A stretch of DNA of 64,000 nucleotides from Limnothrix sp. FACHB-406 (GTDB taxonomy: Bacteria; Cyanobacteriota; Cyanobacteriia; CACIAM-69d), in contig NZ_JACJSP010000012.1 in the NCBI RefSeq assembly GCF_014698235.1, positions 1 to 64,000 on the forward strand. The letters run 5' to 3'. How positions within the stretch are numbered: position 1 is the first letter of the stretch; each line of letters begins with the position of its first letter. The notes beneath the pieces were generated by a model. That model made no database searches and was not told the DNA's origin. It saw only the letters and a program-made list of their open reading frames with translations. Below are positions 1 through 6,532 of this stretch, one piece after another. Both the position numbers and the translations under genes were made by a program.

Positions 1-696
1 TTGACACTTGCCTATGGCGAGTATTACCTGATCACCTCAACAGAAGTGCAACCCATTCAGTCCGAAAACCAAGGGCGGGTGGTTGCCTTAGATCCCGGTG
101 TCCGCACATTCATGACCTTCTTTGCTGAGTCATCCTATGGATGGATTGGCAATGACTCGAACTTGCTGATTCAAAAGCTGTGCTTCAAGCTGGATCGCCT
201 GATTTCCAAAATCACCAAGGCTAAGTCAGCCCAGAAGCGCCGCTTCAAGAAAGCCGCCGATCGCCTACGTTCTAAGGTGCAACACCTGGTGAAAGAACTT
301 CACCACAAAACCGCACGGTTTCTGACTGAAAACTTTGATGTGATCTTACTGCCCAGTTTTGAATCATCTCAAATGGTGAGCAAATCACGTCGAAAGATTA
401 AGTCGAAAACCGTGCGGCAGATGTTGACCCTATCGCATTACCAGTTCAAGAAACATCTGGAATGGAAAGCTTGGGAGTTGGGCAAGATTGCCTTGACCGA
501 CATCAACGAAGCCTACACGTCCAAAACCGTTTCATGGACAGGTGAAATCGTCAAGATTGGCGGCTCTCGGATCATCAAGTCGAAAGTTGATGGGCGGTCA
601 ATGAATCGGGATCTCAATGGTGCTCGTGGGATTTTCCTGCGGGCATTGGTTGATACGCCTTGGTTGAGAGACCATCTCAACTTATGCATTTGTTAG
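1..696 (+). CDS. tnpB: TnpB-family RNA-guided nuclease / IS200-IS605 accessory protein, 5'-truncated by window edge
   Basis: TnpB proteins are transposon-encoded RNA-guided nucleases with a split RuvC site. All three RuvC motifs can be seen: the Asp of VALDPGVRTF (about residue 31), the Glu of LLPSFESSQ (about 120) and the Asp of NRDLNGARG near the end. The frame is open to base 1, so the true start probably lies outside the window. The stretch between SKTVSW and NRDLNGARG, which usually carries a CxxC...CxxC zinc ribbon, has no cysteine here, as in some divergent cyanobacterial relatives. No TnpA is visible. The guide RNA of such elements normally overlaps the 3' end of tnpB, but I cannot delimit it. 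Confidence 0.85.
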   Translation: MTLAYGEYYLITSTEVQPIQSENQGRVVALDPGVRTFMTFFAESSYGWIGNDSNLLIQKLCFKLDRLISKITKAKSAQKRRFKKAADRLRSKVQHLVKELHHKTARFLTENFDVILLPSFESSQMVSKSRRKIKSKTVRQMLTLSHYQFKKHLEWKAWELGKIALTDINEAYTSKTVSWTGEIVKIGGSRIIKSKVDGRSMNRDLNGARGIFLRALVDTPWLRDHLNLCIC

Positions 697-3589: not shown

Positions 3590-4033
3590 TTAGGCAGCCG
3601 AATCGCTGCTTGATCGCCCGTTGAACAGTTCCAACACCTCGCGGCAGTAATGCTTAATTCGATCGGCCGGTTCGGCGCGGGGTTGGCTGTCGCCCTCAAA
3701 CTGCCAGGCCTCGATCGTGGAGAAGCGCCACTGTTGCCCCCGATGGTCGTAGCCCGCCACCTCCACACCGATCGCCCGTTGGGTGTCTTCCACCGGATCC
3801 GCAAAAAAGCGCACTTGCACCAGCAAACTGCGGCAGGCACAGGCGCGGCTGTAGCCCGGGAAGTGAAACCCAATGTCGATCGAGTCTGGATCAACGGTGG
3901 CGCGGGTTTCTGCATCATTGAGCCAAGGTTTCAGATCCACGCGCACATCGGGAAAAGCGATGCGAAACAAATTCACCGCAGCCGCGATTTGGCTGGCTAG
4001 GGCGATCGAGTGGGCACGTTCGGCGGCGTTCAC
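3590..4033 (-). CDS. conserved hypothetical protein
   Basis: A 147-residue, soluble-looking protein with no membrane segment and a CACRS segment in its middle. I do not recognise a family. It reads as a compact alpha/beta protein starting with an amphipathic helix (AERAHSIALASQIAAAVNLF). The GTG start is supported by a strong GGAGG upstream on the minus strand. The gene diverges from the SUI1-like gene at 4191. Coding use is typical of the surrounding genes, which supports it being real. Confidence 0.65.
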   Translation of the reverse strand: MNAAERAHSIALASQIAAAVNLFRIAFPDVRVDLKPWLNDAETRATVDPDSIDIGFHFPGYSRACACRSLLVQVRFFADPVEDTQRAIGVEVAGYDHRGQQWRFSTIEAWQFEGDSQPRAEPADRIKHYCREVLELFNGRSSSDSAA

Positions 4034-4190: not shown

Positions 4191-4550
4191 ATGCCGAGTC
4201 CTCGCCGTGCTGCTGACGATCGCCCCGATCGCCGTGTGGTCTATTCGGAATTTGGCGATGCGGTTAATCCAGACGCGATCGCTCGGGCGGTTCCTGACCT
4301 GCCGCCCAATCAACAAAACCTGAAAGTGCAACTGTCCCGCAAAGGCCGCGGCGGCAAAACCGTCACGGTCATCAGTGGTTTTCAGCACAAGCCCGAGACG
4401 CTACAAGCCCTGCTGAAAACCCTGAAAAACCGCTGTGGAACCGGCGGCACAGTCAAGGACAACAATTTGGAAATTCAAGGAGATTATGCCGATCGGCTGG
4501 TGGCGTTGCTGGTGGAACAGGGCTATAAAGCCAAGCGCAGTGGTGGATAA
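4191..4550 (+). CDS. eIF1/SUI1-family translation factor (YciH-like)
   Basis: A SUI1-fold protein of 119 residues from the ATG at 4191, which follows an AAAGGA at 4172-4177. The C-terminal half carries the SUI1 signature: KVQLSRKGRGGKTVTVI, a KTLKNRCGTGGTVKD loop and a terminal EIQGDYADRL. Bacterial members resemble eukaryotic eIF1, and the E. coli homologue YciH affects initiation fidelity on the 30S subunit. An upstream in-frame TTG at 4182 would add three residues but has poorer spacing. It is followed directly by a 14-base tandem array. Confidence 0.88.
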   Translation: MPSPRRAADDRPDRRVVYSEFGDAVNPDAIARAVPDLPPNQQNLKVQLSRKGRGGKTVTVISGFQHKPETLQALLKTLKNRCGTGGTVKDNNLEIQGDYADRLVALLVEQGYKAKRSGG

Positions 4551-4692
4551 ATTGGCTTGAATTGATTGCTTGAATCAATCGGCTTGAATCAATCAACTTG
4601 GATTAATCAACTTGGATTAATTGACCGGAGTAAATCAATCGGCTTGAATTAATCGGCCTGAATTAATTGGCTTGAATTAATCGGCTTGAATC
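4551..4692. repeat. degenerate 14-base tandem array, about ten units
   Basis: Starting immediately after the stop codon, units of the form ATCGGCTTGAATTA (variants ATTGGCTTGAATTA, ATCAACTTGGATTA, ATCGGCCTGAATTA) follow one another to about 4692, with one slightly longer unit near 4634-4651. The array is AT-rich compared with its surroundings. It lies between the SUI1-like gene and the HAD phosphatase gene. Confidence 0.85.
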
Positions 4693-4725: not shown

Positions 4726-5442
4726 ATGTTGTCCGCTGATTCGTTGCCCAATTCCTTCGGCTTGCTATTCGATTTGGATGGCACTTTAACTGAAACCAAT
4801 CCCTTGCATTACCGAGCTTGGGAACTGGTTTTGGCGGAAGTGGGCTATGACCTCACGCCCACGATTTATGAACAGGTCATCAGTGGCCGAACCAATGCCC
4901 AAATTGTGGTGGATTTGTTGCCCAGCTATTCCGTGGCGGAGGGAGCAGCCCTGAGCGATCGCAAGGAAGCGCTGTTTCGGCAGTTGGCCCCCGACTTGGA
5001 ACCGGTGCTGGGGTTGCCTTTGCTGCTGAAAGCCCTGGAGCCTTGCCATCTGCCGATGGCGGTGGTGACCAATGCGCCCAAGGACAATGCGATCCACATG
5101 CTGACAGCCTTGGGGCTGCGGGAACGGTTCGCAACGGTGGTGCTGGCGGAGGAAGCGCCCCCCGGCAAACCGGATCCCGCACCCTACCGGTTGGGGTTGG
5201 AACGGTTGAACCTGGCTGCCAGTGGGGCGATCGCCTTTGAGGATTCACCCCCCGGAGTGCGATCGGCGGTGGCGGCGGGGATTTTCACCGTGGGTCTGAG
5301 CACCACCCACGCGCCCGAGGAACTGACCCAAGCCGGGGCCTCGTTGGTGATTGAAAACTTTACCGATCGACGGCTTTGGCAACTGTTGCGATCGCGCTTG
5401 GGAGATGAGGCGATCCCGCTTTCGGCTGCATCCACCGTTTAA
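4726..5442 (+). CDS. HAD-superfamily phosphatase / phosphoglucomutase-like hydrolase
   Basis: A 238-residue haloacid dehalogenase protein of the beta-phosphoglucomutase/phosphatase subgroup. Motif I is FDLDGT with nucleophile Asp16 and acid/base Asp18. Motif II is VVTNAP (about 113-118), motif III is GKPDP (Lys148), and motif IV is FEDSPPG (Glu172, Asp173). A helical cap lies between residues 20 and 90. It is soluble, with an undetermined phosphomonoester or sugar phosphate substrate. Only 37 bases separate it from the HD-NDT fusion gene, so the two are probably cotranscribed, suggesting a shared nucleotide- or sugar-phosphate role. Confidence 0.88.
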   Translation: MLSADSLPNSFGLLFDLDGTLTETNPLHYRAWELVLAEVGYDLTPTIYEQVISGRTNAQIVVDLLPSYSVAEGAALSDRKEALFRQLAPDLEPVLGLPLLLKALEPCHLPMAVVTNAPKDNAIHMLTALGLRERFATVVLAEEAPPGKPDPAPYRLGLERLNLAASGAIAFEDSPPGVRSAVAAGIFTVGLSTTHAPEELTQAGASLVIENFTDRRLWQLLRSRLGDEAIPLSAASTV

Positions 5443-5479: not shown

Positions 5480-6532
5480 ATGGATCCTCAGCCGATCACT
5501 GAATTGGGAAGCCATCGCCCGATCGATTTCCCCAACGGTTTGCCCCAACTGGATTTGTTAGCGCGGGCCTTGGCCTTTGCGGCCACAAAGCATCGACACC
5601 AACGGCGCAAGGATCGAGCGCGATCGCCCTATATCAATCACCCGATCGCCCTGCTGCGGGTGCTGGTGCATGAGGCCCAAATTACGGATCCTCAAGTGTT
5701 GGCGGCGGCCCTGCTCCACGACACGATCGAGGACACAGACACCACCGCTGCCGAATTGGTCACCCACTTTGGCCCCGAAATTGCCGCCCTGGTGCAAGAG
5801 GTGACGGACGATAAGCGATTGCCCAAGGCCGAGCGCAAGCAGTTGCAAATTGACCATGCGCCCACCTTGAGCGATCGAGCCAAGTTGGTGAAATTGGCGG
5901 ACAAAATTTGCAATTTGCGAGATGTGGATCAGTCGCCCCCGGAGCGCTGGTCGATCGCCCGTCGCCAGGCCTATTTCGACTGGGCTGAACAGGTGGTGAC
6001 TGCCTTGGGGCCAATGCCGCCGGCCCTGATGGAACCGTTTCGCGCCATTTTGCAAACCGGCCGCGCCCATTTGGCCGCCCCAGCGGCCGATCGCCCCTTG
6101 CGGCTTTATTGGGCTGGGCCGCTGTTTTCCTTGGGAGAACGTTGGCTGAATCAAACCTTGGCCGAGGAACTGCAAACCTTGGGCTATCCAGTCTTTTTGC
6201 CCCAGGCGGCATGTGCGGGCCTCAGTGATCCGCAGGCGATTTTTGAACGCTGTCGATCGGGGCTGGATCAGGCAAACGCCGTGATTGCCGTGTTGGATGG
6301 GGCCGATGCGGACTCGGGAACCTGTTGGGAATGTGGCTATGCGTTTGCGCGTCAGTTACCGATCGTGGCGCTGCGCACGGATTTTCGCGGTTCTGGTGAT
6401 GCGGGCGGCTTCAACGCCATGCTGCTGGGAACGGCCCGATCAGTCATTGCGCTCACGGATCCGGCCGCCGACTTGCCCACGGTGCGATCGCGCTTGGTGG
6501 CGGCGGTTGAAGCCTTAGTGCCGCTGAATTAA
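5480..6532 (+). CDS. fusion of MESH1/SpoT-like HD phosphohydrolase with nucleoside 2-deoxyribosyltransferase-like domain
   Basis: Residues about 25-190 form a small RelA/SpoT-hydrolase-type HD domain: H38, HD at 80-81, ED at 84-85 in LLHDTIEDTDTT, and D141 in LADKICNLRD, as in MESH1, which hydrolyses ppGpp and NADPH phosphate groups. Residues about 207-350 match the nucleoside 2-deoxyribosyltransferase family: LYWAGPLFS, then DADSGTCWECGYA with the putative catalytic Glu284. The domains are joined by a short linker (about 190-206). The frame is open upstream to 5351, but the ATG at 5480 is the natural start because it avoids overlapping the HAD gene. It likely forms an operon with that gene. 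The joint substrate is not known. Confidence 0.82.
   Translation: MDPQPITELGSHRPIDFPNGLPQLDLLARALAFAATKHRHQRRKDRARSPYINHPIALLRVLVHEAQITDPQVLAAALLHDTIEDTDTTAAELVTHFGPEIAALVQEVTDDKRLPKAERKQLQIDHAPTLSDRAKLVKLADKICNLRDVDQSPPERWSIARRQAYFDWAEQVVTALGPMPPALMEPFRAILQTGRAHLAAPAADRPLRLYWAGPLFSLGERWLNQTLAEELQTLGYPVFLPQAACAGLSDPQAIFERCRSGLDQANAVIAVLDGADADSGTCWECGYAFARQLPIVALRTDFRGSGDAGGFNAMLLGTARSVIALTDPAADLPTVRSRLVAAVEALVPLN

Follow-up and report, generated by a model that had tools for sequence, protein, structure and literature searches.

A single gene of Limnothrix sp. FACHB-406 joins a MESH1-type hydrolase to a domain resembling nucleoside 2-deoxyribosyltransferases (NDTs), and this MESH1-NDT fusion is a real, conserved gene. 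It is found at positions 5480..6532 on the forward strand of the window, i.e., the whole stretch of 64,000 nucleotides analyzed here, and encodes 350 amino acids from an ATG start to a stop codon at 6530-6532. With a probability of about 0.5, the product may be regarded as a lineage-specific, soluble two-activity nucleotide-turnover enzyme, a reading that is favored over a sensor or assembly function of the second half, over direct serial action of the two halves and over a neutral fusion. Both halves come from known families; their union is undescribed as far as searches reach, since a literature search limited to open-licence papers returned no described enzyme with this architecture, in agreement with the original prediction, whose author knew of none.

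The reading frame comprises 350 codons with zero internal stops. In Pfam, HD_4 covers residues 30-161 with 74.2 bits (cut-off 27.2; E 1.3e-20) and Nuc_deoxyrib_tr (PF05014) residues 209-304 with 65.7 bits (cut-off 28.8; E 5.2e-18), and the same two-domain frame is found in three further genomes (G001, G002, and G004). The claim that one chain carries both an HD hydrolase and an NDT-like domain is thus borne out, and the fact that both domains score far above the curated cut-offs speaks in favor of two activities. That two genes were merged through a missed stop codon or an assembly error has a negligible probability: the open frame recurs in four genomes, which excludes an assembly error and disposes of the two-gene, frameshift, or internal-stop reading that had been named as a possible refutation. 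The nearest named copy, from Limnothrix sp. CACIAM 69d (L031), is 96% identical across the whole protein; L031 and the contig with the G001 copy appear to be one and the same.

The MESH1-type HD hydrolase domain spans residues 22-190 (5543..6049; all coordinates within the gene refer to the forward strand). Its best match in the PDB is human MESH1 (3nr1, E 5.4e-55), followed by Drosophila Mesh1, with Rel enzymes far behind, and its predicted model matches human MESH1 structures, including the complexes with NADPH and PAPS, with TM scores of 0.93-0.94 at about 1.1 A. Over 173 aligned columns, about 55% identity is shared with the human (3nr1, 5vxa) and Drosophila (3nqw) proteins, together with the fold and the catalytic residues; however, known MESH1 is a single domain whereas here it is followed by a second domain in the same chain. 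In an alignment of nine rows, all residues for metal binding and catalysis in human MESH1 are retained, and His54 (5639..5641), equivalent to MESH1 His35 and presumably a metal ligand, the stretch from His80-Asp81 (metal) to Glu84-Asp85 (5717..5734; the catalytic ED pair, MESH1 Glu65-Asp66), and Asp141 (5900..5902), equivalent to the metal ligand Asp122, are invariant. The same nine rows are also invariant at Trp157, Arg161, and Tyr165 (5948..5974), the counterparts of MESH1 Trp138, Arg142, and Tyr146 on the C-terminal helix of the substrate pocket, which we take to have a role in NADPH binding. Regarding the distinction between the Mesh1 and Mesh1-L subgroups, these W/R/Y pocket residues are retained and the tree is poorly resolved. 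The residues presumed to form the nicotinamide riboside site of Mesh1 are also kept, unlike in XccSAH of Xanthomonas, which is devoid of this motif (PMC9765508).

The N-terminal half would be a manganese-dependent hydrolase taking the 3'-pyrophosphate off (p)ppGpp and possibly also the 2' or 3' phosphate off NADP(H), CoA, or PAPS, and its complete set of catalytic residues favors the two-activity reading. MESH1-class enzymes act on (p)ppGpp and (p)ppApp (PMC7644958), an activity on CoA has been published, and the E65A variant of MESH1 is inactive (PMC13221220). While activity on NADPH is supported in one study (PMC9765508), it is disputed in another (PMC7644958), and this dispute weighs against the two-activity reading. 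More generally, ppGpp, NADPH, CoA, and PAPS are all candidates for the substrate on which enzymes of the MESH1 type act in nature, and a MESH1 standing alone also occurs in bacteria equipped with a complete Rel enzyme.

No RelA_SpoT synthetase domain is matched in the fused protein by Pfam, and its identity as a long RSH (Rel/SpoT) was rejected, as its match to spoT_relA is confined to the hydrolase part and scores 78.7 bits, against a cut-off of 499. The only alarmone synthetase domain of the genome sits on contig C1. Each genome has one RelA_SpoT match, within a long Rel, and no small synthetase; the MESH1 half is thus an orphan rather than the partner of a toxin, and this count is also consistent with an enzyme having two activities. 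That it is a small alarmone hydrolase (SAH) serving as antitoxin to a toxic synthetase was likewise discarded, the genome being without the partner small alarmone synthetase. In this respect the fusion resembles the Mesh1-L SAHs, such as XccSAH, which are also bacterial orphan MESH1-like hydrolases in a genome without a toxic synthetase (PMC9765508). Mesh1-L has been listed for cyanobacteria by Atkinson et al. (PMC3153485). A role in anti-phage defence was rejected, since neither the fusion nor the HAD protein encoded upstream matched any PADLOC model.

The two halves are connected by a linker (residues 191-205, 6050..6094) whose length and sequence vary between species in the alignment and where model confidence is low at residues 201-204. 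In the predicted full-length model it is uncertain how the halves are oriented toward each other (pTM 0.57), which is a point against the two-activity reading. The NDT-like domain follows at residues 206-345 (6095..6514). When the PDB was searched with a profile built from 14 cyanobacterial relatives, 7m5h and 7o62 came out on top (both E 2e-20), followed by CtNDT and others, with DNPH1/Rcl at E 0.05 or worse. A fold search with the model of this domain alone also placed 7o62 (E 9e-8, Foldseek probability 1.00) and 7m5h first, then DNPH1 and other NDTs with similar scores; the pairwise match to CtNDT is weak (E 0.02). The entry 7o62 is the NDT of Desulfotalea psychrophila (PMC9570332). With this enzyme (DpNDT), the E. 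faecalis enzyme (7m5h), and CtNDT from Chroococcidiopsis (8pqp and others), the NDT-like half shares the fold, the nucleophilic Glu, the Tyr, and the equivalents of Asp82 and Asn118, but unlike these NDTs it has a Cys at the position of Asp62 and a MESH1 partner.

On alignment and profile mapping, Tyr210 (6107..6109) corresponds to CtNDT Tyr7, the invariant Asp278 (6311..6313) to Asp82, Glu284 (6329..6331) to the nucleophile Glu88, and the stretch from Asp307 to Asn312 (6398..6415) to Asp111, which contacts the base, and Asn118, which contacts the 5'-OH (PMC10913048). The exception is Cys258 (6251..6253), at the position of CtNDT Asp62: a Cys is found there in all 20 distinct cyanobacterial sequences compared, the four fusions counted in, and outside the cyanobacteria there is an Asp in the Chloroflexota relatives read and an Asn in one acidobacterial relative. 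Both catalytic sets had been described as intact, which is accurate for the MESH1 set, fully kept, but not for the NDT set, where the second active-site Asp (which we take to be Asp72 in the Lactobacillus enzyme) has given way to Cys258; for this reason the domain is named NDT-like and not NDT.

The consequences of this replacement can be approached through CtNDT, whose Asp62 clashes with the 2'-OH of ribonucleosides and whose D62N variant retains about 50% of the efficiency with more futile hydrolysis (PMC10913048). Because of this clash, of the behavior of D62N, and of the Cys at that position, we infer by analogy that the cyanobacterial branch would be more ribose-tolerant and more hydrolytic. 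The C-terminal half is predicted to cleave the bond between base and sugar, or to exchange the base, in nucleosides whose 5'-OH is free, the sugar being held covalently on Glu284, and with Cys258 in place of the ribose-clashing Asp it may accept ribonucleosides and lean to hydrolysis. The Asp-to-Cys swap thereby offers a simple testable prediction, namely the preference for ribose or deoxyribose in the cyanobacterial NDT branch.

Cys258 could also weaken NDT catalysis, a reservation that applies to the two-activity reading. Taken further, the same swap across the whole cyanobacterial branch could mean that the NDT-like half is a sensor or oligomerization module, which would regulate MESH1 upon binding of a nucleoside or nucleotide and have hardly any catalytic activity or none. 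The catalytic Glu is moreover read as Val in the relative from G005, and we take PF05014 to belong to the DrHyd superfamily. Inactive versions of the TIR-DrHyd-SLOG class serve as sensors (PMC9503650). However, the fusions retain the nucleophilic Glu, the Tyr, the Asp, and the Asn, and CtNDT D62N is still about half as efficient, so that such a role appears unlikely, and the retained residues argue for two activities. The G005 relative itself is a stand-alone NDT (L115, 8589-9029, reverse strand), the sister genome G003 retains the Glu, and the Val may denote either an inactive copy or a sequence error. NDT domains usually form oligomers sharing active sites, and the fusion would therefore probably also cluster several MESH1 domains.

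With regard to the substrate, the DNPH1/Rcl and MilB nucleotide N-glycosidases have their fold and family in common with the NDT-like half, although the sequence match to them is clearly weaker. The 5' contact of the DNPH1 type is presumably a phosphate-binding residue; the NDT-like half has instead Asn312, as CtNDT has Asn118, which suggests recognition of a free 5'-OH rather than a phosphate pocket. Phage-borne NDT-dUTPase fusions (DmtZ-DutZ) likewise join an NDT-family domain to another nucleotide enzyme, but differ in the partner, in being carried by phages and in their DNPH1-like specificity (PMC12884076).

These features bear on the proposal that three activities act in series on one nucleotide, as put forward in the original prediction: MESH1 would strip the 2' or 3' phosphate, the NDT-like half would cut the glycosidic bond of the same molecule, and the neighboring HAD protein would perhaps remove another phosphate. 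The fusion itself and the conserved HAD adjacency are in line with such a sequence of reactions, Cys258 possibly admits ribonucleotides, and the DrHyd superfamily includes NAD-consuming members (PMC9503650). On the other hand, the 5' phosphates or adducts stay on the known products of MESH1, and since Asn312 suggests a CtNDT-like pocket for a free 5'-OH, these products would be poor candidates for a direct hand-over. Outside the fusion the two domains are found together no more often than by chance, the class of the HAD protein, which falls below the specific models, gives no pointer to a 5'-nucleotidase, and the NDT set is altered at Cys258. The serial scheme is not supported by these observations and appears distinctly unlikely, although the chemical argument, the main one against it, is drawn from homology to CtNDT and might not hold for an altered pocket. 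Quite improbable is the more specific idea that the fusion dismantles a phosphorylated ribonucleotide cofactor or alarmone in two steps within one protein, e.g., the MESH1 half converting NADP(H) to NAD(H), which would next lose its base at a ribose-tolerant Cys258 NDT half; if true, cyanobacteria would have a cofactor drain linked to light or stress. Under the preferred two-activity reading, the halves most likely have a single purpose in common, the turnover of nucleotides alongside the only Rel enzyme, with no intermediate handed over.

Three other species have the fusion, with identities of 96, 70, and 56%, and together with this one they represent two genera of one family. Compared with G001, the MESH1 half has a dN/dS of 0.08 and the NDT half one of 0.11; against G002 and G004, where synonymous sites are near saturation, the values are 0.14-0.37. 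Where dN/dS is measurable, both halves are under strong purifying selection to about an equal degree; this similarity and the persistence of the fusion over 56-96% identity fit a protein with two working activities. Within the class, represented by 340 genomes, the fusion is confined to G000, G001, and G002 (one genus) and G004 (a second genus of the same family), with a stand-alone MESH1 of this type in 45 and a stand-alone NDT in 22. Two members of the same family, G003 and G005, have a separate NDT and no fusion, which counts against the two-activity reading, as does the association of the unfused domains, which is not above chance: they occur together only in G011 and G014, on different contigs (2 seen against 2.9 expected; Fisher p 0.75 in a test ignoring relatedness).

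That two unrelated housekeeping enzymes were joined by chance and kept since both work could be hypothesized from this lack of co-occurrence, from the restriction to one family, and from the variable linker. Retention across two genera down to 56% identity, with an upstream HAD gene conserved in both, renders such a neutral fusion rather improbable. In the domain trees the position of the G004 copy is unresolved in each, and a constraint that groups the four fused rows is not rejected (AU p 0.33 for NDT; 0.75 for MESH1, where the constrained tree is the better one). One fusion event fits the trees: a stand-alone-type MESH1 gene acquired a C-terminal NDT-family domain and, as far as the trees tell, did so once, at the root of the Limnothrix-type clade; that a single origin is not rejected is also in keeping with a two-activity enzyme.

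Beyond the class, an NDT relative is found in 8 of 301 genomes from the phylum of the Chloroflexi relative, and none of the NDT frames read there carries a MESH1 half, L138 and L140-L142 being excluded from this count; their open frames of only 163-267 codons leave little room for one. In the phylum of the gammaproteobacterial MESH1 genome (L033), no NDT of this type was detected among 398 genomes, a weak negative as the search had no positive control. Profile hints of long HD or NDT proteins in phages were not substantiated, since tblastn gave no phage or plasmid record matching both halves. The 391-codon NDT frame of L136 (Chloroflexota) proved on reading to be a GC-rich upstream extension and not a fusion, and the MESH1 matches of L050, L053, and L072 that extend toward a second domain run past a stop and are no fusions either.

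Directly upstream of the fusion lies a gene for a HAD-superfamily phosphatase of the beta-phosphoglucomutase-like subgroup (4726..5442, forward strand; HAD_2 3.8e-27), which, as noted earlier, ends 37 bases ahead of it, at 5442 against 5480. The protein is under the cut-off of every specific named phosphatase model and passes the general HAD-IA model only. A HAD gene also adjoins the fusion in G001 and G004, the G004 relative (about 54%) ending two bases ahead of it; in G002 a cobalamin-biosynthesis gene is found upstream instead, and no HAD relative past 1e-30 was detected in that genome. A divergent HAD relative is found beside a stand-alone MESH1 in G015, from another family, and no HAD neighbor was found at the other MESH1 loci fetched with their flanks, about 75 from other phyla. 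The HAD neighbor of the fusion is non-random. An uncharacterized gene of 146 amino acids (3590..4033, reverse strand) belongs to a protein family without a Pfam match that is widespread in cyanobacteria, and its relatives lie directly upstream of a stand-alone MESH1, on the same strand, in four other cyanobacteria (G286, G120, G036, and G127; four genera of one family). It is likely part of an older MESH1 neighborhood, and its product is a candidate functional partner of MESH1. Because relatives of both the HAD and the 146-amino-acid genes adjoin stand-alone MESH1, the fused gene seems to lie within this older neighborhood, the NDT domain having been added later. Conservation of both a fusion partner and a HAD neighbor offers rare pointers to the pathway.

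A few observations concern the surroundings of these genes. A glmS-type gene is found upstream of the stand-alone NDT in G003 (L114, 3403-5361) and in G005 (L115, 9069-11027), at a distance of 40 bases in the latter, and in G022 a MESH1 domain is fused to a double SIS domain resembling the C-terminal part of GlmS (L128, 218-1939, reverse strand); this GlmS-type link, beside NDT in two genomes and fused to MESH1 in a third, is considered a coincidence for now. At the edge of the window (1-696, forward strand), an open frame resembles, by eye only, a transposon-associated protein of the OrfB/TnpB type. In the interval from the SUI1 gene to the HAD gene, positions 4550-4690 of the window contain a series of near-repeats, each about 16 bases long (AATCGGCTTGAATTAATC...).
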